Source: Barnesiella intestinihominis YIT 11860 (GTDB lineage: Bacteria; Bacteroidota; Bacteroidia; Bacteroidales; Barnesiellaceae). Taken from it: a stretch of DNA of 64,000 nucleotides. The position numbers and the translations under genes are program-made. The stretch lies in the NCBI RefSeq assembly GCF_000296465.1, contig NZ_JH815203.1:1-64000 (forward strand), in the 5' to 3' direction. Of the stretch, positions 40,636 to 51,762 are shown piece by piece. The notes below the pieces were generated by a model. The model was given only the letters and a program-made list of their open reading frames with translations, did not search any database and was not told the origin of the DNA. Within the stretch, counting starts at the first letter, position 1. Each line of letters begins with the position of its first letter.

Positions 40636-41907
40636 TTATTGATATATCCTCACATAGTCGATCACATACTCCAAGGGAAGAGCCGTCACGTCGATTCCTT
40701 CACGACCGCCCCAACCTCCGCCAAAGGCGAAATTGAGCAACAAATAGAAATCTTTGGTATAAGGCCAGTTGGTATTGGAATAGGTTCTTCCACGCAAAAC
40801 GGTGGCTTGCAGCTCCCCGTCGATGAACCAAAGCAACCGATCGGGGTGCCACTCAAAGGAATAGACATGCCAATCCTCGGGGTTCTCGATGGGAGCGCTG
40901 TTAGCGTAGCGGTTGGGCTGGTTGTTGCTATTGAAGTCGGCGCAGTGAGCCGTGAAGTAGATGTTGTTGGGGTCATATCCCACATGCTCAATGATGTCGA
41001 TTTCGCCACAAGCGGGCCAGTCGCTACGGTCTTGCGGGAACATCCAGATAGCGGGCCACGAGCCCAAGCACACCGGAAGTTTGGCACGCACCTCCACCCG
41101 GCCATAGGTAAAGGCGAATTTCCCTTTGGTCACGACGCTGGCCGAGGTAATGGGAATAATCGTATCGGCGCGATAACCATGCGACCCACTCCACTGCTGC
41201 TCATACAACGCGTCTTCTATCAAGGCGCTGTCGTTGCGGCACACGATGTGCAGACAGCCGTCGGCCATATAGGCATTTTCTTCACGAGCCACCGTATAAT
41301 ATTGATCCTCGCCGTTGCGCACATAGCCTTCTTCATAACCCCATTTGCTGTCGTCGAGCAAACCGGTGCCGTCGAACTCGTCGGAGAAAACCAGTTTGGT
41401 AAAGCGCTCGGGAATCGCCACGGCTTTCAACGTGCCGTCGTTATCGCACTCCAAGCTCCATTGTGTGCCGTCGTCCGATTTCAGCAACAAAGCATTCTCT
41501 GCCGACAAAGCGTAGGGCACTGTGCCCAACTCTTGAGTGGAGGTAAATACCGCCTCGCCGCTACCGGCCAGTTCGATCTCGGTCTCGATAGAGACTTTGC
41601 CCCACCAGTCGACCGCACCGAAAGAACCTTCGATAGGTGTACCCTCGCCCACTTGCAGGCGCACCAAACCGTTGGCGTCGCTCGTGGCCGTGTGGGTCTC
41701 GCTGTACAGGGTGACCGGTTGGGCACCGGAGCGTGTCGACAGCGTGCGCTGAATGTAGAACCGCACAGTCAATTCTTGGTCGGCCACGGGATTGCCCTGC
41801 TCATCGCGCACAACCGTTTGATAGGGAATGCCCTTTATAGTTTGGGCACACAACTCGACCACAGGAAACAGAGCCATGGTCAATATGATTAATAGGATCT
41901 TTTTCAT
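40636..41907 (-). CDS. GH16 endo-beta-glucanase (laminarinase-like) with an N-terminal accessory domain
   Basis: This 423-aa secreted enzyme has signal peptide MKKILLIILTMALFPVVELCAQ. Residues about 22-165 form a domain shared with the 164-aa protein two genes upstream (GIPYQTVVRDEQGNPVADQEL, VGEG, LGTVPYALSAENA). Residues about 170-423 are a GH16 catalytic domain with the motif GEIDIIEHVG near residue 305 (two catalytic Glu and the assisting Asp present) and the closing FGGGWGGREGIDV ... YVIDYVRIY. This bulge-type motif is usual for laminarinases. It probably cuts beta-1,3-glucan outside the cell; specificity is inferred. Confidence 0.93.
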   Translation of the reverse strand: MKKILLIILTMALFPVVELCAQTIKGIPYQTVVRDEQGNPVADQELTVRFYIQRTLSTRSGAQPVTLYSETHTATSDANGLVRLQVGEGTPIEGSFGAVDWWGKVSIETEIELAGSGEAVFTSTQELGTVPYALSAENALLLKSDDGTQWSLECDNDGTLKAVAIPERFTKLVFSDEFDGTGLLDDSKWGYEEGYVRNGEDQYYTVAREENAYMADGCLHIVCRNDSALIEDALYEQQWSGSHGYRADTIIPITSASVVTKGKFAFTYGRVEVRAKLPVCLGSWPAIWMFPQDRSDWPACGEIDIIEHVGYDPNNIYFTAHCADFNSNNQPNRYANSAPIENPEDWHVYSFEWHPDRLLWFIDGELQATVLRGRTYSNTNWPYTKDFYLLLNFAFGGGWGGREGIDVTALPLEYVIDYVRIYQ

Positions 41908-41914
41908 CTGTCAC

Positions 41915-42373
41915 TTATTTTTTAATAATCAAAACCGAACGGCTACCGACCTCGTTCGTAATCTTCAACACATACTCCCCTGTCGTCTTATCGGAGAAAT
42001 CAATCACGGCTTGTGTATCGGCCAACTCGCCCAAACCGAGCAAACGCCCCTGCATGTCGTATAACCACCACGAAGTGGCACGGCTCCCCGAAATCGAGAG
42101 ATACAACTCGTCGACTACGGGATTGGGGCCGGCAGTAAAGGTGAGGTTATCGCCCTTGATATTCAGGATACCCGAGGTCGATATGGCTATAGGTTGATTG
42201 AATCCTTGCGAGAAACGCACGACATTGGAACGCATCACCGACTCGGTGAATACCTCGCCCAGCGTCCATGTCAACATGTCGGTACTACCGCCGGCACTCG
42301 ACACGACCGATTGAGCCACCGACTTTCCGCACAAAGCCGACGCTATACATAATAATAGGATTGCCTTTTTCAT
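41915..42373 (-). CDS. small secreted protein with type-9 sorting domain
   Basis: This 152-aa protein has signal peptide MKKAILLLCIASALCGKSVAQ. A short N-terminal part (SVVSSAGGSTDMLTWTLGEVFTESV ... FSQGFNQP) is a pattern common in small Bacteroidota secreted proteins. The C-terminal half is a type-A sorting domain (FTAGPNPVVDELYLSISG ... WWLYDMQGRLLGLGEL ... GEYVLKITN). With so little else in it, it may be an anchor or partner for other surface proteins of the operon. It starts 12 bases downstream of the 164-aa gene. Confidence 0.85.
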   Translation of the reverse strand: MKKAILLLCIASALCGKSVAQSVVSSAGGSTDMLTWTLGEVFTESVMRSNVVRFSQGFNQPIAISTSGILNIKGDNLTFTAGPNPVVDELYLSISGSRATSWWLYDMQGRLLGLGELADTQAVIDFSDKTTGEYVLKITNEVGSRSVLIIKK

Positions 42374-42385
42374 AAAACCGCTGTT

Positions 42386-42880
42386 TTATTCTGTTACGGC
42401 TTCGGCCGAAACCGTTCCGTCGTTACTTACTTTGATTTTCCACAATTTCCCATCGGGCGATTTCACATGCACGTTGTCGGCGGTTACCGCACATTTGGCA
42501 TACGGCACACTCAGCAACTGCTGGGATCCCAGCGATTCGTAACCGGTACCCCGGTTGACCAGCGTCTCGAAGAAATAAACGCCTTCGCTCCAATCGACAT
42601 CGACAAACAAAGTTTCGCGCGAGGTGTTCACACCCTCGCCCACTTTCAAGGTGATAATTCCCGAAGCGTTGCTCGATGTAGTGTGGTCTTCTTCATAGAC
42701 TACCGTGCCATCGGCCGCGCCTTGGTGGATTCGCACTCTCACTTCGAGCGGTTTATTGGAAGCTATACTACCGTCGTCATTGCGGAGCACAGCCTGATAC
42801 TGAAACGAACCCGGCACCTGTGCCGACATTCCTATAATACAAAGGAAGGTGGATAAAACCGAAATAATTTTCTTTTTCAT
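42386..42880 (-). CDS. secreted stand-alone copy of the GH16 N-terminal domain
   Basis: This 164-aa protein has signal peptide MKKKIISVLSTFLCIIGMSAQ followed by a single domain matching residues about 25-165 of the GH16 protein two genes downstream (FQYQAVLRNDDGSIASNKPLEVRV, TLKVGEG, LLSVPYAKCAVTADNV, then DGKLWKIKVSNDGTVSAEAV). In Bacteroidota this module often precedes fibre-like or adhesin regions; here it ends there. Its role is unknown, perhaps binding or assembly. It is the first gene of the five-gene minus-strand operon, with a candidate HTCS operator 144 bases upstream. Confidence 0.85.
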   Translation of the reverse strand: MKKKIISVLSTFLCIIGMSAQVPGSFQYQAVLRNDDGSIASNKPLEVRVRIHQGAADGTVVYEEDHTTSSNASGIITLKVGEGVNTSRETLFVDVDWSEGVYFFETLVNRGTGYESLGSQQLLSVPYAKCAVTADNVHVKSPDGKLWKIKVSNDGTVSAEAVTE

Positions 42881-43204
42881 GAATAAAAATTTAAATTTAT
42901 AATTCTACTAACATAATGTATTTGTCACACACTTTTTAACATGACAAATATAAATTCAATTGCAACAACCGTTTTACAACGAATAAGACATTGTTTGAAG
43001 TTTTGCATTCGCAGTTGAAAAATTGTAGCGAAAATTTAGATTTATGTTGCAGCGAGGCTTTCGACCGCCTCAAACAGAGGTTTTCGCCCCGTTTTTCCGT
43101 TTCGCCCACAAGGCTCGCCGGGTCATCGTTTTTCGCCACAGCACCCCATGGAGTTAAGGGCAAACGGCGTTTCGGCAGCGAGCCCCCGGCAGGGCCTGTT
43201 CACG
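42881..43204. other. intergenic stretch upstream of the five-gene operon
   Basis: These 324 bases contain the candidate HTCS operator (43024-43048) and no supported gene. No clean TAnnTTTG element was found for the operon. Confidence 0.6.
43024..43048 (-). promoter_or_regulatory. candidate HTCS operator, copy 1
   Basis: Read toward the 164-aa gene, the 25-bp site runs from AACATAAAT to CGCTACA. It matches copy 2 at 20 of 25 positions and shares 16 invariant positions with copies 2 and 3. It lies 144 bases upstream of the start codon. Confidence 0.6.
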
Positions 43205-44041
43205 TCAGCGATACACCCTCACATAATCGATAATGTACTCTTGCGGGAGCGCGTCGAGGTCGACACCCTGACTTCCGCCCCAGCCTCCGCCGAAAGCGAA
43301 ATTGAGTATCAGATAAAACGGACGGTCGAACGGCCATGCCTCCCAGCCGTTTTCGTCTTTTGTTACCGAATAGGTTTCAACCCCGTCGAGATACCATGTG
43401 AGTTTATCCTCCCGCCATTCAAAACCATATACATGAAAATCGGTGGCCACCGTGGCGCAATCGACGGTATGGCATTTTTGATTGTTTTTGGTATGGTTGT
43501 ATTTTTCGGTATGTATGGCATAATGGACTTTGGGCAATTCATATCCTACATTCTCCATAATATCCATCTCACCGCTCTTGGGCCATTCGCCATAGGTATC
43601 GTCGGCGGGCATCATCCAAATAGCGGGCCAAGTGCCTATTCCATCGGGCAATTTGGCGCGCACCTCTACCCGGCAATATTTCCATTCGGCAAGACCCTTG
43701 GTGGTAATGCTGGCCGAGGTAATCGGGGCAACCGCCGTGCTGCGGGTCGTATCGACCGGCGTCTCCCACTGTTTGGCGAACAGTCCGTTCTCTATCACCG
43801 CACTGTCGCGACGAACCACGATGTGCAGATAGCCGTCCTGCCGATAACAGTTCTCGGGACGGGCTACCGTGTAATATTGTAATTCGCCGTTACGCACATA
43901 GCCTTCTTCGTAATTCCAGCGCAAGGAATCGGGGAGCCCGGTTCCCTCGAAATCATCTTCAAACACCAACTCATTTGTCGTACCACATGCCACCGAGAGC
44001 GCCAGCGGCAGGCTAGCTAAAAACAATTGCACTTTTTTCAT
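43205..44041 (-). CDS. GH16 endo-beta-glucanase lipoprotein (laminarinase-like)
   Basis: This enzyme of 278 aa starts at the ATG at 44041, which yields the lipoprotein signal MKKVQLFLASLPLALSVAC; an ATG at 44110 lies upstream of the -7 element. The single GH16 domain has GEMDIMENVG near residue 160 and ends FGGGWGGSQGVDL ... YIIDYVRVYR. It closely resembles the catalytic half of the other GH16 (shared RWNYEEGYVRNGELQYYTVARPEN block). It is probably anchored on the outer membrane to start glucan breakdown. It has its own promoter and candidate operator downstream of the HTCS gene. Confidence 0.93.
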   Translation of the reverse strand: MKKVQLFLASLPLALSVACGTTNELVFEDDFEGTGLPDSLRWNYEEGYVRNGELQYYTVARPENCYRQDGYLHIVVRRDSAVIENGLFAKQWETPVDTTRSTAVAPITSASITTKGLAEWKYCRVEVRAKLPDGIGTWPAIWMMPADDTYGEWPKSGEMDIMENVGYELPKVHYAIHTEKYNHTKNNQKCHTVDCATVATDFHVYGFEWREDKLTWYLDGVETYSVTKDENGWEAWPFDRPFYLILNFAFGGGWGGSQGVDLDALPQEYIIDYVRVYR

Positions 44042-44075
44042 GATAAATATCCATTCGTTATAAAGGTTTGTGTCG

Positions 44076-44083
44076 CAAAGATA
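44076..44083 (-). promoter_or_regulatory. promoter -7 element of the GH16 lipoprotein gene
   Basis: The minus strand TATCTTTG matches TAnnTTTG, 34 bases before the ATG. The operator copy lies 30 bases further upstream. A TTTG lies at 44108-44111, 24 nt away. Confidence 0.6.
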
Positions 44084-44113
44084 GAGACTATACGACGGCG
44101 GGATTTTCAAATA

Positions 44114-44138
44114 TGTAGCGCAGATTTCAATTTATGTA
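44114..44138 (-). promoter_or_regulatory. candidate HTCS operator, copy 2
   Basis: Read toward the GH16 gene, the 25-bp site runs from TACATAAAT to CGCTACA, with TACA repeated 21 bp apart. It sits 30 bases upstream of the -7 element. Confidence 0.65.
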
Positions 44139-44206
44139 TAAAGCACACCCCAACGCCGCCGGCTCGTCCCGACGGGGGATTTCACCGCCGTCTCCAAAAG
44201 ACAGGT

Positions 44207-47200
44207 CTATGGCTCCTCCTTGTCGTCCACGGCCTTCAACGGAGGTTGCCCCGAATCGCGGTTCAACTCCACATAACGGCTGGGCGACATGCCGTAGAAA
44301 TCGCGGAAACTGTTAGAGAAATGTGACAGCGACGAAAAACCGGCTTCATAGGTCACCTCGGAAATCGAAAGGTTTTTCGTGACAAGCAACGAAGCGGCAT
44401 AGCGCAACCGGGCTGTTTTGAGGTAATCGCTCGGATTCTGGTTGGTGAGTTGCTTGAATTTGCGTTGCAATTGCGAGCGGCTTACCCCGATTTGCCGGCT
44501 GAGGGTCTCGACCGAAAGATTGGGGTCGGAGATTTGCTCTTTGATAATCTGGTCGATTTTCTCGAGCATTTTTTCATCGACCGATTTTATCTTGATGTCC
44601 TCTTCCCGCAACTCGTGTTTTCCCTCGTATTTTTCCTTGATCGAGCGCCGCAGCTCGATGAGCTTGCGCACCCGGGTTCTCAGATGCGTCACATTGAACG
44701 GCTTGGGGATATAAGAGTCGGCGCCCACTTCCAGCCCCTCGATACGCTGCTCGATAGCGGTTTTCGCCGTGAGCAGAATCACCGGGATATGGCAGGTTTT
44801 CTCGTTGGTCTTTATCTTCTTGCACAATTCGATACCGTCCATCTCGGGCATCATCACATCGGTAATCACACAGTCGGGCAATTCCTTGATGACGAGTTCG
44901 AGCCCTTGCAACCCGTCTTCGGCCTCAAGCACTCGATATTCACGCCCCAGAATCTCTCTCAAATATTTGCGTATCTCTTTGTCGTCTTCCACCACCAAGA
45001 GTTTGTAGCGGAACATCGAGGCGGCTCCTTGCAACGGTTCTTCCTGTACCTCCTCTACAAAATCCTGCAAAGCGGGCTGCACGAGCGTGGCCAAGCTGTC
45101 TTCCGAGGCCTCGGTCTGCATCTCCTCTTTCTTCAAATAATCGTTGTTCAGCGGCAATGTGACGACAAACACCGCCCCACCAGCCGAGGAATCTTCTACA
45201 TAAATGCGCCCGTGGTGTATCTCCATAAGGCTGCGGGAGAGGTGCAACCCTATGCCCGTACCCATTTTATTGCGGTTGTTCTTTGTAGGTATTTGATAGA
45301 ACCGATTGAATATCAATTCCCGCTGCTCGGCCGGGACACCCTCGCCAGAGTCGGCGATACGGATTTTCAAGTCGCCGCCGTCCTTCCCTATCTCAATTGT
45401 TACCTTCCCGCCCTCGGGGGTGTATTTAAACGCATTGGAAAGGACATTGAACACCACCTTGTCCAATTTTTCTTGGTCGATCCAAACCGTGGGCAAGCCC
45501 GGCTCCACATGTATCTCGAACTGTATATGCTTCTCCTCGGCGATGTTGTCGAACGACGAAGCTATCGCCCGGAAGAACGTATCGACATCGGTGGGCACGG
45601 TCAACAGCCGCACCTGCCCGCGATCGAGTTTCCGCATTTCCATCACTTGGTTGATCAGCCGCAAAATGCGTTGTCCGTTCTGGTTAATCATTTTATACAC
45701 ATTTTGCAAAGGGCCCTCGGGAGTCTCTTTAATGAGCGCCTCTATGGGCGAGAGAATCAAGGTCAAAGGAGTTCGGATTTCGTGCGATATATCGGTGAAG
45801 AATTGAAGTTTGGACTGCATGATGAGATTGTCGTTCTCCTTTTGTATATCTACTTTCTTGCGGCGGATACGGCGCTCCATCATGTAGACAAACAGGCACA
45901 ATGCGGCCAAGACACACAAGAGATAGAATGTCTTTGCCCACCATGTGAGCCAAAATGGGGGCGTCACGACAATCGACAGGCTCCGCTCTACCGGTTTGGT
46001 TCCCGGCAAGAAAGCCCTCACCATAAAGGTATATGCACCGTGATTCAAATTGGTATAGGTCGCCAGACGGCTACCGGTCGGCAAGGTGCGCCACTCGGTG
46101 TCGAAGTTGTCCATCTTTACTTGATAGACGACCTTCTCGGGCGAATTGTATTCCAAGGCGGCAAACTCGATCGAGAAGCTCCGTATGTCGTAGCCTATCT
46201 TTATCCGCTCCGTCGCATTGATATTGCGTTTCAACACAGCGGCCTCATCATCGCCCACCTTTATTTTCTCGTTGTAGAAATAGAGGTTGGTAAACATGAG
46301 GTGCATCAATTCATGCTCGGCATGAAGGGCAAACGGATAAAACGCCGTAAGACCGACTATCCCGCCGAAAAACATCTCGCCCGTCTTTGAGCGGAAGTGC
46401 GCCCCCCGCCTAAACTCGTTGTTCTGCAAGCCGTCGGAGGTGTAAAAATTGGAAAACGTGTGGCTTTTCACATCGTAAAACGATAGCCCCAGCGACGTGC
46501 TTATCCACAGATTTCCACGATCGTCGATTTCTATCCCGGCGATAGAGGCGTTGGACAGGCCGTCGGCCTCGGTATATAGCAAGGTGGTGTCCCTCGTCAA
46601 GTCGATATAGTGCAAACCGCCTTTCGTGCCCACCCAAACGTTGCCAGCCGAATCTTGCGCCACGGCATAAATGTTGTTGTTTTTCAGCTTCCCGTTTTCG
46701 ACATTGTAGTCACGAAACTGGCCGGTTTTCTGGTCGAAACAAGCGATGCCGGCACTGCTGGTACCAATCCACACCAAACTGTCACTCCCGAAGAGAATCG
46801 TATGCACCGAGTTGCTGGGTATCTGATTGCCTTTGGACAACATGTCGTAGGTGTAGCTTTCGAGTTTTTTCGTGTCGTGGTTATACAGGCACAAGCCGTT
46901 TTCGTTGGTTCCTATCCAAAGGGTTCCATCGGTATTTTCCTCGATAATGTAAATATCTTTTATCTCTCTCCCTCCGGTCTGCAACCGTATGCTTTGGAAA
47001 CTGTCGGAGCGCTCGTCATACAGAAACAGCCCGTGCAAATAGGTTCCCAGCCAAATGCGCCCGCGGCTATCCTCAAAAATCGTCAGCACCACTCCGGCAG
47101 GCAGTTTGTCCGCGGTATAGTGGCGATCCACTTCACGGTCGGCGTTCAACCGGTATATCCCGTCGCCGTCGGTTCCTATCCACACCCTGCGCGACGAGTC

Positions 47201-48289
47201 CTCGAGAATGCTCAGCACACACTCCGACCCGATATTCAACTCGGGGTGAAAGAAGTTCAATCCCCAGTTATGGAAAATACGTTCCTGCTGGGGTACCATC
47301 AGAATACCTTTCTGGTACAGCACAAGCCACAAATTGTCTTGCCGGTCTTCGAGTATCCCATGCACCTTGGCGTGATGCATGTCGATGCTGGTCAAATCGG
47401 AATCATATGTGCTCACTTCCCGAGTGCGATAATCGAACTTTTTAAGCCCGTTACCGTCGGTTCCTATCCACACATTATTGTCCTTTCCTTCTTTCAAAGT
47501 GAAAGCCCCCTTGACCGAAGGGATATAATTGCGTATAAACTTCTTGGAAGAATAGTCAAAGAGGTCTATTCCGCCATCGATCATGCCTATCAACATGTTG
47601 CCATCGGGCAACTCGACAAACGAAAACACTTTGTTGCTCGACAAGGAGTTCACATCGGCAGGGTCGTGCGCATAATTCACAATCGTGTGTGTCTCCATAT
47701 TCAACACACTTATTCCGTTGTCCTGCGACCCGATCCATATATTCCCAAACCGGTCTTCGTATATCGTGTTGATTTTATCGGAACATATATTGCTGTTGGT
47801 AGGCAAATAGTAGACCGGGCTATGCTCGTCGCCCTTCAAACAAATGGCGCCGGCCCGGCTGGTCGACAGCCAAATGTTCCCACGGCTGTCTTCGATAATG
47901 CAACTCACATAACTGAAATCGGTTATATACGGATACGAGAAATGCACCGTCGAGAACCTGTCGGTTTCCCGGTCGAGCCGTTGCAAACCGCCCGTCGTGC
48001 CCACCCACAGATTGCCCTTGGTATCGTCGTAAATCGACAAGACCGAATTGTTCCCGAGCGAGGTCGTGTCGTCCAAGACGTGATAATAGGTCTTAAATTC
48101 CACCCCGTCGAAACTGTTCAATCCATTATCGGTACAAATCCATATAAGCCCCGTGCGATCCTGATAGATGCTATTGACATGGCTATTGGACAATCCCTCC
48201 TGCAAACCATAGAATCTATCGGTATTGGCGGCAACCGGAAAGACCGTGAAGTATAATAATATTAAGAAAATTGTTTTATATATCCTCAT
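44207..48289 (-). CDS. hybrid two-component system regulator (HTCS)
   Basis: This one-protein sensor and regulator of the PUL is 1360 aa. It has a signal peptide (to about 22), then a two-propeller periplasmic sensor with repeated WIGT-type Reg_prop blocks (about 25-690), a Y_Y_Y domain (about 700-770) and a membrane helix near 790. A histidine kinase follows with the H-box FFTDISHEIRTPLT (His near 834) and an ATPase part (GTGIGLHLSRSLME). A receiver domain has the Asp near 1144 (CVITDVMMPEMDG). An AraC-type DNA-binding domain lies at about 1230-1340 (ETLSRQIGVSRSQLQRKF, EAGFSSLSHFSNSFRDFYGMSP). It diverges from susC. The ligand is probably an oligosaccharide of the target glucan. Confidence 0.97.
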   Translation of the reverse strand: MRIYKTIFLILLYFTVFPVAANTDRFYGLQEGLSNSHVNSIYQDRTGLIWICTDNGLNSFDGVEFKTYYHVLDDTTSLGNNSVLSIYDDTKGNLWVGTTGGLQRLDRETDRFSTVHFSYPYITDFSYVSCIIEDSRGNIWLSTSRAGAICLKGDEHSPVYYLPTNSNICSDKINTIYEDRFGNIWIGSQDNGISVLNMETHTIVNYAHDPADVNSLSSNKVFSFVELPDGNMLIGMIDGGIDLFDYSSKKFIRNYIPSVKGAFTLKEGKDNNVWIGTDGNGLKKFDYRTREVSTYDSDLTSIDMHHAKVHGILEDRQDNLWLVLYQKGILMVPQQERIFHNWGLNFFHPELNIGSECVLSILEDSSRRVWIGTDGDGIYRLNADREVDRHYTADKLPAGVVLTIFEDSRGRIWLGTYLHGLFLYDERSDSFQSIRLQTGGREIKDIYIIEENTDGTLWIGTNENGLCLYNHDTKKLESYTYDMLSKGNQIPSNSVHTILFGSDSLVWIGTSSAGIACFDQKTGQFRDYNVENGKLKNNNIYAVAQDSAGNVWVGTKGGLHYIDLTRDTTLLYTEADGLSNASIAGIEIDDRGNLWISTSLGLSFYDVKSHTFSNFYTSDGLQNNEFRRGAHFRSKTGEMFFGGIVGLTAFYPFALHAEHELMHLMFTNLYFYNEKIKVGDDEAAVLKRNINATERIKIGYDIRSFSIEFAALEYNSPEKVVYQVKMDNFDTEWRTLPTGSRLATYTNLNHGAYTFMVRAFLPGTKPVERSLSIVVTPPFWLTWWAKTFYLLCVLAALCLFVYMMERRIRRKKVDIQKENDNLIMQSKLQFFTDISHEIRTPLTLILSPIEALIKETPEGPLQNVYKMINQNGQRILRLINQVMEMRKLDRGQVRLLTVPTDVDTFFRAIASSFDNIAEEKHIQFEIHVEPGLPTVWIDQEKLDKVVFNVLSNAFKYTPEGGKVTIEIGKDGGDLKIRIADSGEGVPAEQRELIFNRFYQIPTKNNRNKMGTGIGLHLSRSLMEIHHGRIYVEDSSAGGAVFVVTLPLNNDYLKKEEMQTEASEDSLATLVQPALQDFVEEVQEEPLQGAASMFRYKLLVVEDDKEIRKYLREILGREYRVLEAEDGLQGLELVIKELPDCVITDVMMPEMDGIELCKKIKTNEKTCHIPVILLTAKTAIEQRIEGLEVGADSYIPKPFNVTHLRTRVRKLIELRRSIKEKYEGKHELREEDIKIKSVDEKMLEKIDQIIKEQISDPNLSVETLSRQIGVSRSQLQRKFKQLTNQNPSDYLKTARLRYAASLLVTKNLSISEVTYEAGFSSLSHFSNSFRDFYGMSPSRYVELNRDSGQPPLKAVDDKEEP

Positions 48290-48335
48290 CTAAATAAAAA
48301 TCCTCTTAAAAAAACACATCGGCGTGTTTCAAATA

Positions 48336-48343
48336 CAAATGTA
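48336..48343 (-). promoter_or_regulatory. HTCS gene promoter -7 element
   Basis: The minus strand TACATTTG matches TAnnTTTG, about 46 bases before the ATG of the regulator. No well-spaced -33 element is seen. Confidence 0.5.
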
Positions 48344-48382
48344 ATATTTTTTATTCAAATATAATAAATGTAGCAACCGGGC

Positions 48383-48407
48383 TACAAATCTTTAACTCTT
48401 CGCTACA
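48383..48407 (+). promoter_or_regulatory. candidate HTCS operator, copy 3 (upstream of susC)
   Basis: The 25-bp site runs from TACAAATCT to CGCTACA; GCTACA occurs at 48381-48386 and again at 48402-48407, exactly 21 bp apart. An inverted TGTAGC (48369-48374) faces the first copy. It lies 166 bases upstream of susC, with a weak -7-like TATATGTG at 48448-48455. Confidence 0.65.
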
Positions 48408-48573
48408 TTTTTACAAATGTCCGTCCCGATACGAAAATAGTAATAGGTATATGTGCAAGCCATAAAGAGAATAAGCGACTATTTTTGACATACGAAATTT
48501 CCCGGAATTTCAATCGCAAGAAAAATAAAATAACAGTGCAAAAACAAAAATAATTATTACACACAATCTAATC

Positions 48574-51500
48574 ATGGAAAAAGAGATTCTAACCAAAAGA
48601 CACACAAGGAACAAAACGAAACGTTTTCTTGTCTTCTTGTTGCTTTTCGTGGCTTGCAGCAGTTCTGTATTTGCCCAGTCGAAAACCATTTCGGGTGTTG
48701 TCACTTCGGCAGGAGAACCGCTAATCGGAGCCAGCATCGCAGAAAAAGGAACAACCAATGGAACCATTACCGACATCGAAGGCCGCTTCTCCATCAAAGT
48801 AGCGCCCAACGCAACCCTGCAAGTATCCTACTTGGGATATGAGACCCGGTCGATAGATGTAAAGGACCAAACGTTTTTAGACATCGAACTGCAAGAAGCC
48901 GTCAACATGCTCGATGAGTTTGTGGCTATCGGTTACGGTGTACAACAGAAGAAATTGATCACAGGCGCTACCGTGCAGGTCAAAGGCGACGACATCGCCA
49001 AGCTGAACACGGTGAATGCCCTCGGAGCCTTGCAAAGCCAGACTCCCGGTGTGAACATTACCAAACAAAGCGGTAAACCGGGCGAAGGATTCAAGGTGAC
49101 GATTCGTGGTCTCGGAACAATCGGCAACTCGGCACCTCTTTATATTATAGACGGTGTACCCAACGGCGACATCGGCATGCTGAACCCCTCGGACATCGAG
49201 TCGGTCGATGTATTGAAAGACGCCGCTTCGGCCGCTATCTACGGTGCCCGCGCCGCCAACGGTGTAATCTTGATTACGACCAAACAATGGAAAAAGGGAA
49301 AAGCCTCTATCCAATACGACGGCTACATCGGGTTCCAGAATTTGGCCAAAACAGCCACTCCGCTCAACGCCGAGCAATATCTGGAAATCCTGAACGAAGC
49401 CGGCTATGACCGACAATATTTCGCCGACCGTATCCCGGAAAGCATTCTGGAAGGTGTCGACAACGGTACTTTCAAAGGGACCAACTGGCTGAAAGAAATG
49501 ACTCTCGAGAACGCCCCTCAAATGGGACACGCCGTGAATGTGACCAGCGGCGGTGACATTTCTACTTTCTCGTTTGGTTTCTCCTACACCTCGCAAGAGC
49601 CGGTCATCGGTTTGGAAGAGCCTGAGATAAAACAGATGTATGAACGCTACACCCTGCGGTTGAACTCGGAACACAACATTATCCGCAACGGCGACCGCAA
49701 CATACTTACCTTCGGTGAAACCTTGACCGCCGGTCACACAAGCAGCACGGGTCTGGGTATGGGAACCGGAAACCTCTATTGGAACGACGTGCGTAGCGCC
49801 TTGGCCGGAAACCCGTTGCTCCCCGTCTATGACGACGAAACCGGAGATTATCACAAACCCCTCGAAGGCCTCGATTATCAGTCGGTCAACCCGATTGCAC
49901 AAATGGATTACCTGCGTTCGCGCGTGAACAGCAAAAACTACTCGATTCGCGGTAGCCTCTACCTGATATTCGAGCCGATTAAAAACTTGAAATGGCGCTC
50001 GACCTTCGGCTATGCCTACAACGGCGGCACCAGCCGGGAATATGTTCCGGTGCATTACCTCAACTCAGTGACCTTCGAAGATCTCGACAAAGTGACTCAA
50101 AGCTCGTGGAACGGATTGCAATGGAGTTGGGACAACACGGTATCGTATGATTTCAAACTGGGCGACCACAAGTTCACCGCTTTGGTAGGTAACTCGCTCG
50201 AGCGCTGGGGCTTCGGCGAGAACTTGGGAGGCTCGAACAGAGGCTCGGAATTTAACTCTTTTGAATTTGCCTATCTGAACAATGTGAAAACCGTAGCCAG
50301 CGGGACAACCACAGTGACCGGCTCGCCGTGGGACGACGGTGGTCTCGTCTCGTTCTTCGGCCGTGTCAATTACGACTATGCCGGCAAGTACATGGCCAGC
50401 GTGACCATGCGCGCCGACGGTTCGTCCAACTTTGCCCGTGGACACCGTTGGGGCTACTTCCCCTCGGTATCGGCCGGTTGGAATATCCACGAAGAGAACT
50501 TCTTCAAAGAGAATGTCAATTTCATGGACCAATTGAAAATCCGTGCCAGCTGGGGTGAAAACGGTAACTGCAACATAAGCCGTCTCGCCTATCTCGAAAC
50601 AATCGCCATCGGCGGCGCATCCAATGCCGCTATCTATTACTTCGGCGAAGACAAATCGCAATATGCCATCGGTGCATATGCCGACAGAATCGCCAATCCC
50701 GACCTGACGTGGGAAACTTCCCGCCAAACCGACATCGGATTGGATACCCGCTTCTTCCAAAGCCGATTGGGATTCTCGTTCGACTGGTATGAAAAACTGA
50801 CACTTGGCTGGCTCGTTCAACCCACAGGATTGGGTATTTGGGGTACAGCGGCTCCCTATATCAACGGCGGTGACATCAGAAATACCGGTGTCGAAATCAG
50901 TTTGGACTGGACCGACAACGTAGGCGATTTCAGTTACAGCATCAAAGGCAACATGTCGTACAACCGCAACGAAGTACTCAGCATCGACAATGACCAAGGA
51001 TTCATCAACGGTACTTCAAACATATTGACCCACAACACCACTTATCTGGCACGCGCCGAAGTAGGGCAACCGTTGGGCTTCTTCCACGGTTACAAGACCG
51101 ACGGTATCTTCCAGAATCAAGAGCAGGTAGACGCATACATCTGGACCGATCCCGAGACTGGAGCCACTCAAAAAATCATGCCCGACGCTCAACCCGGCGA
51201 CGTGATTTTCAAGGATTTGAACAACAACGGCGTTATCGATGACGGCGATAAAACCTTTATCGGCGACCCGCACCCCGATGTAACCTACGGACTCTCCATC
51301 ACGTTGGGATACAAAGGATTTGACTTCGCGGTTACAGGTTACGGAGTAGCCGGCAACCAAATTGCCAAATCGTACCGCAACAATACCAATACCACCTTCG
51401 ACAACTATACGACCGAAATCTTAGGCCGCTGGCATGGCGAGGGTACTTCCAACCGGTTGCCCGCAATCGACGGAAGCGCCATCAACTATGGCTATGTATC

Positions 51501-51762
51501 GGATTTGTATATCGAAGACGGCGACTACTTCCGCATCAGCAATGTCACGCTGGGATATGATTTCACCCGCTTGTTCAAGTCGAAATATATCTCGCAACTG
51601 CGCCTGTATGCAAGCGTGCAAAATCTCTTCACCTTCACCAACTACTCGGGCATGGACCCCGAAATCGGCTATGGAGGCGGCGACGATTGGACCTCGGGTA
51701 TCGACCTCGGTTACTATCCCGGAGCCCGCACCTATATGTTTGGTGTCAACCTCAAATTCTAA
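48574..51762 (+). CDS. susC: SusC/RagA-type TonB-linked outer membrane transporter
   Basis: This 1062-aa beta-barrel imports oligosaccharides using TonB energy. The signal sequence ends near SSVFAQ. The carboxypeptidase-regulatory-like domain follows (KTISGVVTSAGEPLIGASIAEKGTTNGTITDIEGRFSI), then the TonB-box/plug start (EFVAIGYGVQQKKLITGAT) and the plug core (VTIRGLGTIGNSAPLYIIDGVP ... VLKDAASAAIYGARAANGVILITTK). The barrel fills the rest and ends YMFGVNLKF. It is the first gene of the plus-strand PUL operon; susD follows after 44 bases. Confidence 0.97.
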   Translation: MEKEILTKRHTRNKTKRFLVFLLLFVACSSSVFAQSKTISGVVTSAGEPLIGASIAEKGTTNGTITDIEGRFSIKVAPNATLQVSYLGYETRSIDVKDQTFLDIELQEAVNMLDEFVAIGYGVQQKKLITGATVQVKGDDIAKLNTVNALGALQSQTPGVNITKQSGKPGEGFKVTIRGLGTIGNSAPLYIIDGVPNGDIGMLNPSDIESVDVLKDAASAAIYGARAANGVILITTKQWKKGKASIQYDGYIGFQNLAKTATPLNAEQYLEILNEAGYDRQYFADRIPESILEGVDNGTFKGTNWLKEMTLENAPQMGHAVNVTSGGDISTFSFGFSYTSQEPVIGLEEPEIKQMYERYTLRLNSEHNIIRNGDRNILTFGETLTAGHTSSTGLGMGTGNLYWNDVRSALAGNPLLPVYDDETGDYHKPLEGLDYQSVNPIAQMDYLRSRVNSKNYSIRGSLYLIFEPIKNLKWRSTFGYAYNGGTSREYVPVHYLNSVTFEDLDKVTQSSWNGLQWSWDNTVSYDFKLGDHKFTALVGNSLERWGFGENLGGSNRGSEFNSFEFAYLNNVKTVASGTTTVTGSPWDDGGLVSFFGRVNYDYAGKYMASVTMRADGSSNFARGHRWGYFPSVSAGWNIHEENFFKENVNFMDQLKIRASWGENGNCNISRLAYLETIAIGGASNAAIYYFGEDKSQYAIGAYADRIANPDLTWETSRQTDIGLDTRFFQSRLGFSFDWYEKLTLGWLVQPTGLGIWGTAAPYINGGDIRNTGVEISLDWTDNVGDFSYSIKGNMSYNRNEVLSIDNDQGFINGTSNILTHNTTYLARAEVGQPLGFFHGYKTDGIFQNQEQVDAYIWTDPETGATQKIMPDAQPGDVIFKDLNNNGVIDDGDKTFIGDPHPDVTYGLSITLGYKGFDFAVTGYGVAGNQIAKSYRNNTNTTFDNYTTEILGRWHGEGTSNRLPAIDGSAINYGYVSDLYIEDGDYFRISNVTLGYDFTRLFKSKYISQLRLYASVQNLFTFTNYSGMDPEIGYGGGDDWTSGIDLGYYPGARTYMFGVNLKF

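Follow-up and report, generated by a model that had tools for sequence, protein, structure and literature searches.

Predicted direct-repeat operators of a hybrid two-component system at three promoters of a Barnesiella intestinihominis glycan utilization locus

In gut Bacteroidota, much of the feeding on glycans is under the control of hybrid two-component systems (HTCSs), and we know of few HTCS operators that have been resolved to base level; to our knowledge the contact between an HTCS and RNA polymerase is likewise open. In Escherichia coli, the cytoplasmic regulator AraC, which loops via a distant site, occupies at araI1-araI2 direct half-sites that lie 21 bp apart beside the promoter, with two contacts per half-site about one helical turn apart. 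According to Ravcheev (2013; PMC3878776), the HTCS operators predicted for Bacteroides thetaiotaomicron are direct repeats of two half-sites at an average distance of 21 bp, placed upstream of susC and of other units of the HTCS-encoding polysaccharide utilization locus (PUL) and interpreted as sites for a dimer bound to a single face of the DNA. Fragments of the HTCSs BT4124 and BT4663 comprising the receiver and the DNA-binding domain (DBD) bind the bt4114 and bt4662 promoters in gel shifts, and the receiver restrains the DBD (PMC11253607). Here we describe three sites in the first 64,000 nucleotides of contig NZ_JH815203.1 of Barnesiella intestinihominis YIT 11860, a stretch called the window below, which very probably are operators of the HTCS encoded between them at 44207-48289 (minus strand). 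This reading is drawn from their conservation, their specificity within the genome, a link to a sister locus and a fixed spacing to the promoter.

The sites share the 21-bp direct repeat and the placement within a PUL with the operators described in PMC3878776, in a different genus, and as predicted operators are a further member of that 2013 class; their geometry relative to the promoter may be new. Binding to a susC promoter has been shown for BT4124 and BT4663 (PMC11253607) and is predicted for the window HTCS, whose receiver also carries CHIP. The direct half-sites 21 bp apart are like those of AraC, but the window regulator is a membrane-bound HTCS with, as we infer, two adjacent dimers. 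The text of PMC3878776, its alignments not covered, gives neither a fixed distance to the -7 box nor an array of four half-sites, and the literature searched, in which subscription papers were so sparsely covered that absence is weak evidence, yielded nothing on either beyond this paper and PMC11253607. PMC12125979 concerns a different regulator, and the accessible part of PMC6874557 contains no operator geometry. What is added here is an extended half-site, comparative support and a model of how the HTCS might be placed on the promoter. A clade-specific operator at a fixed distance from the -7 box offers exact bases to mutate and, if general, a register of four steps would allow operators to be predicted from the promoters of uncharacterised PULs.

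A sequence-only reading of the window had placed 25-bp sites upstream of three transcription units, and direct reading of the sequence together with a pattern search found them at 43024-43048 (AACATAAATCTAAATTTTCGCTACA, minus strand) before an operon starting with the gene of a 164-aa protein, at 44114-44138 (TACATAAATTGAAATCTGCGCTACA, minus strand) before a gene for an enzyme of family GH16, and at 48383-48407 (TACAAATCTTTAACTCTTCGCTACA, plus strand) before susC. Its further statements held as well: 16 of 25 positions are identical across the three sites and 20 of 25 between the first two, each site is oriented alike relative to its own gene, and the WACA...TACA cores are 21 bp apart, forming an internal direct repeat (identities and spacing counted by hand). 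Among the 25-mers of the three upstream regions (324, 165, and 284 bp), the gap-free triple with the most shared columns, 17, consists of the same sites shifted by 11 bp, whereas 200 dinucleotide shuffles of these regions yielded 13 at most. The heptamer CGCTACA by itself was set aside as a weak signal, as it occurs 10 times in the window versus 5.2 expected, only about twofold, and 3 of 100 shuffles contained as many. This twofold excess, and the fact that the motif was picked by eye, would fit a chance resemblance in AT-rich promoter DNA; together, however, the shuffles and the conservation and genome scan described below rule this explanation out, and we consider its probability negligible.

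Alignment across the genus revealed a conserved unit of about 36 bp, longer than the 25 bp noted before, which consists of two 15-bp half-sites with starts 21 bp apart and a consensus of roughly GCnACAwnTwTnmAA. The half-sites h1 and h2 are GCAACATAAATCTAA (43036-43050) and GCTACAATTTTTCAA (43015-43029, both on the minus strand) in the promoter of the 164-aa operon, and GCTACAAATCTTTAA (48381-48395) and GCTACATTTTTACAA (48402-48416, both on the plus strand) in that of susC, as delimited by sequence, conservation and alignment from the -7 box. The GH16 promoter carries, by sequence and conservation, TATACATAAATTGAA (44126-44140) and GCTACATATTTGAAA (44105-44119, both on the minus strand); its first half begins with TATACA instead of GCnACA and is the most degenerate of the first halves. 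Two contacts about ten bases apart in each half-site would be expected of the two helix-turn-helix motifs of a single AraC-type domain. An inverted GCTACA next to the susC site (48369-48374) was dropped as a candidate element; it is present only in the window genome and in one other (G005).

An orthologous HTCS (84-100% identity) is encoded in five of nine genomes of the genus, the window genome included, with the same gene order as far as the compared stretches extend. All three sites are present in all five, and the half-site spacing is 21 bp in 15/15 sites. Conservation was compared among the window genome and three more diverged ones (G004, G006, and G007): invariant columns make up 30/36, 26/35, and 33/36 of the sites versus 81/307, 23/158, and 123/287 outside them, and no segment of equal length in any of the three upstream regions is more conserved than the site it contains. 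A natural case of regulator loss is found in G008, whose locus lacks the HTCS, susC, and susD apart from a remnant of about 50 residues of the HTCS DBD (L121, 15917-16066). This genome retains the GH16 gene and the 164-aa operon with both sites, of which the GH16 site is decaying (three mismatches) and the 164-aa site is not (one mismatch).

Many unrelated matches across the genome would speak against an operator, and the genome scan proposed by the sequence-only reading was carried out in the nine genus genomes with a 35-bp pattern, allowing up to three mismatches and using the reversed pattern as control. Since the pattern was built from these sites, matches to them were expected and the informative part is the absence elsewhere. 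Only three matches occur in the 3.44-Mb window genome, all at the locus; the five genomes with the ortholog have three each, 15/15 at the HTCS locus. G003, which lacks an orthologous HTCS, has no match to the 35-bp pattern, G001 a single one at the sister HTCS introduced below, and G008 two, upstream of GH16 and of the 164-aa gene.

The repeat also follows the HTCS clade beyond this locus. A sister HTCS, 55-58% identical, resides in a separate locus beside a divergent GH26-like gene, and a GCnACA repeat at 21 bp lies between the two in all three genomes with sequence there (G001, G005, and G008, the last with one change); the fourth sister locus, in G004, was not counted as its gap is ended by a contig edge. 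The sister HTCS gene is interrupted in two genomes, by overlapping frames in G008 (L100, 10245-14332) and by an in-frame stop in G004 (L092). In a metagenome-assembled genome of the Dysgonamonadaceae, the locus L004 encodes an HTCS 55% identical to that of the window and contains two copies of TTGCGACAAAT at a spacing of 22 bp. When 393 genomes of the order were scanned, with no protein as input, for the repeat combined with a -7 box, an orthologous locus came up in G038, which belongs to another family; its sites precede susC (70% identical) and a gene resembling that of the 164-aa protein. As a validation set, the family of G038 comprised three genomes and yielded nothing new. The 393 genomes were also searched with the HTCS protein, giving 36 matches, of which 26 were new loci and were tested, 4 had been seen before and 6 had no locus. 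Among same-clade HTCSs, that of G038, whose upstream region is complete, has the repeat, and that of G245 shows none in its mere 111 bp of upstream sequence; where DBD identity is at most 59%, the 450 bp upstream contain no repeat in 23 of 24 loci, the exception being G376. Over 71 usable loci, out of 80 before partial HTCS matches and loci without an upstream region were excluded (L004 was excluded as well in a later analysis), a loose GCnACA repeat precedes four HTCS genes, L004 included, versus an expectation of 0.35 based on the remainder of that DNA. One of the four, L024, is doubtful, as its repeat abuts the called start codon. The proposal that the sites are bound by the HTCS encoded between them thus draws support from genome specificity, conservation and the clade link, and we treat them as predicted operators. 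That they belong to some regulator other than the linked HTCS appears improbable. The linkage is indeed circumstantial, and G008 keeps sites without an orthologous HTCS, though it carries the split sister gene; the repeat, however, accompanies the HTCS clade both to a sister locus, where the target genes differ, and to other families, and is missing from nearly all loci with more distant DBDs.

A further constraint emerges from the -7 box, TAnnTTTG, which is used at that position by the main Bacteroides sigma factor (PMC7366714). As had been noted, the GH16 site ends 30 bp before such a box, TATCTTTG (44083-44076, minus strand). Measured from the end of the second GCnACA to the box, the distance is 71 bp in 6/6 promoters of the 164-aa gene, G008 included (box TATATTTG at 42945-42952 of the window, minus strand), and 72 bp in 5/5 susC promoters (box TATTTTTG at 48480-48487, plus strand). 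It is 71, 72, and 71 bp in the sister promoters and 72 bp in that of L004, compared to 30, 30, 31, and 31 bp in the GH16 promoters of the four genomes measured. The proximal and distal distances hence differ by 41-42 bp, or two repeat steps. When the 393 genomes were scanned for two GCnACA motifs and a TAnnTTTG box at a free distance of 58-86 bp, 120 matches were parsed and the seven at the orthologous locus of the window's own genus were removed before the distance peak was counted. At lag 21, 15 of 85 matches fell at 71-72 bp, whereas the other 27 bins averaged 2.6. Three genomes carry this peak with nine of the 15 matches (G376 four, G245 three, and G038 two) and the remaining six are about background; five of these six (L171, L172, L174, L175, and L176) have no HTCS gene nearby except for one weak partial match. 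A peak of six matches at lag 22 and 71 bp was given no weight; five of them read as one conserved coding sequence, by eye presumably FtsK-like. Adding the AA contacts to the pattern, with 31 distances allowed, left 14 matches, 12 of them at a gap of 62-63 bp, which corresponds to 71-72 bp (seven in the window's genus, five in G038 and G245), and the other two at gaps of 60 and 53; the reversed control had three matches.

The 72-bp distance also occurs in G376, beside HTCSs with other DBDs. Four promoters, all inside a 54-kb stretch that surrounds two such HTCSs (32-33% identical; L167-L169), combine the 21-bp repeat with a -7 box exactly 72 bp away; they are located between an HTCS gene and susC, just after the other HTCS gene, and before genes for proteins of 574 and 515 aa. 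One of the four precedes a gene that by eye encodes a putative transketolase. A second class of sites at the proximal distance was sought elsewhere and rejected, with one match in the 393 genomes at a gap of 37 versus the predicted 21-22; the proximal pattern is unable to match the window's own GH16 site because of the TATACA in its first half.

Because the proximal and distal distances differ by two repeat steps, the gap in the distal promoters was examined for two more half-sites, h3 and h4. Aligned from the -7 box, AA occupies the second-contact position of h4 in eight of nine promoter families and that of h3 likewise in eight, with a family counted only if every member has AA; AA at other offsets is found in 1.0 families on average and in five at most. 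The observed pair scores 16, whereas the best pair 21 bp apart in shuffles (by two-base blocks, one promoter per family) scored 11, and none of 20,000 reached the observed value. Neither h3 nor h4 had a role in the choice of the sequences, from which we omitted G005, near-identical to the window, and the four G376 promoters, which belong to other DBDs. Independence among the nine families is incomplete, as three stem from G245 and two from G038 and the others share ancestry. Exceptions are G245 C59 at h4 and L004 at h3. In G038 and G245 C30, h3 is still a complete half-site, and so is h4 in G245 C174. In the window, the putative remnants in the 164-aa promoter are h3 at 42995-43009, with the conserved 3' part CTTCAA and 20 bp after h2, and h4 at 42974-42988, with TTGTAA (both on the minus strand); in the susC promoter they are GTCCCGATACGAAAA (48423-48437) and TAGGTATATGTGCAA (48444-48458, both on the plus strand). 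The two GH16 half-sites fall into the h3 and h4 registers. Two promoters of G245 (L182 and L188) have strong tandem arrays of half-sites resembling GCGACATTTATGCAA, in three or four copies, before a TAnnTTTG box.

Taken together, this geometry suggests how the HTCS might act. The 15-bp half-sites, each combining GCnACA with a second contact nAA, would put two AraC-type domains on one face of the helix at their spacing of 21 bp. As the family implies, the periplasmic sensor would meet a glycan fragment, the receiver would be phosphorylated and the DBDs would pair on the repeat. For GH16 this pair would directly adjoin the promoter at 30-31 bp from the -7 box; in the susC and 164-aa promoters its strong counterpart would sit two repeat steps further upstream, at 71-72 bp, with two degraded half-sites in register filling the gap. 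The simplest mechanism would be that one dimer, bound to h1-h2, brings another onto the weak h3-h4 and that this second dimer contacts RNA polymerase, and we lean toward it for the distal promoters with some reserve; binding by the HTCS, two dimers, cooperativity, and activation are all conclusions by deduction. Alternatively, the HTCS might bind h1-h2 only, and the AA of h3 and h4 would be promoter elements, namely a -33 element and an A-tract for the alpha domain of RNA polymerase. The position of the h4 AA roughly matches the one expected of the -33 TTTG element (PMC7366714), the distal promoters of the window itself retain just the AA part of h3 and h4, and those of G376 show the distance but no remnants. 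Such elements would, however, not readily account for a spacing of exactly 21 bp between the two AA positions, which keep the register of h1-h2, for the complete GCnACA...AA half-sites at h3 or h4 in G038 and G245, or for the GH16 pair as a strong site in the same register or one base off, and we therefore regard this alternative as rather unlikely.

Several observations weigh against the predicted operators and their proposed geometry. Since G008 keeps both downstream sites after loss of the HTCS, another factor could still use its 164-aa site. The 35-bp pattern has one match in G002, within an open reading frame and probably due to chance, and the single match of the reversed control pattern across the nine genomes falls in the window genome. 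Support for the proximal class is confined to the GH16 orthologs of the window plus one outside locus, L069 (L024 being doubtful), and the G376 promoters keep the 72-bp distance but by eye have AA at h4 in one of four cases and at h3 in none. The h3 and h4 remnants are thus documented for this HTCS clade only.

Whether the register extends to other HTCSs was approached with a motif-free measure of 21-bp self-similarity. As in the count of loose repeats, loci with a partial HTCS match or lacking an upstream region were excluded from the first set. Upstream of 64 TAnnTTTG boxes near 43 other HTCS genes, the measure is highest at lag 21 and 36-41 bp ahead of the box; a second, weaker rise lies around 71-80 bp, and there is none at 57. 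For 65 boxes at lag 21 and the register d=36, z equals 5.25 against 750 boxes elsewhere in the same loci, and 2 of 20,000 AT-matched draws attain this value. The lag-21 excess recurred in a fresh set (34 boxes, 20 loci; none of 646 other lag-offset cells reaches it) but was spread over 22-90 bp, and the sharp register was not replicated there. We tentatively consider a common ruler for HTCS promoters across Bacteroidota, in which two HTCS dimers would occupy four steps, each 20-21 bp long and counted from the -7 box, and the strong site would fall in either the upstream or the downstream pair; h4 would start 36 bp and h1 98-99 bp upstream of the box. Its odds are lowered by the G376 promoters, which keep the distance without the remnants, and it is somewhat less probable than not.

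The regulator is a single chain of 1360 aa that scores above the cut-off for all HTCS Pfam domains (Reg_prop sensor, Y_Y_Y, HisKA, HATPase, receiver, and AraC-type HTH_18) and thus is an HTCS by definition; its DBD comprises residues 1263-1340 (44270-44503, minus strand). At the thresholds used, the genome encodes two HTCSs with Reg_prop sensors plus one 793-aa Reg_prop protein; within this class, the two HTCSs are the competitors for the sites. All three units with sites flank the HTCS gene. It faces the main target unit, which starts with susC (48574-51762, plus strand) and continues with susD and genes for a GH26-family protein, an FAD oxidoreductase, a GH3 enzyme, and a CBM96 protein. On its other flank are the GH16 enzyme (43205-44041, minus strand), whose best match in the PDB is a laminarinase (3iln), and the run of genes that starts with the 164-aa protein (42386-42880, minus strand) and also encodes a 152-aa protein with a type IX secretion system tail, a second GH16 protein, and two proteins matching choice-of-anchor Q. 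The gene content makes a beta-glucan the likely target, and judged from GH16 and GH3, laminarin is a plausible inducer; the named solved relatives of the GH26-family protein are mostly mannanases.

A minus-strand TACATTTG/TATATTTG box at 48336-48343, about 38 bp away from the susC operator, is conserved among the aligned genomes. It is probably the -7 box of the HTCS gene itself, and through this neighboring box and the susC operator the HTCS gene and susC possibly share control. A 423-aa protein (40636-42880) looks as if a relative of the 164-aa protein (about 35%) had been joined to a GH16 domain about 51% identical to the neighboring GH16 enzyme.

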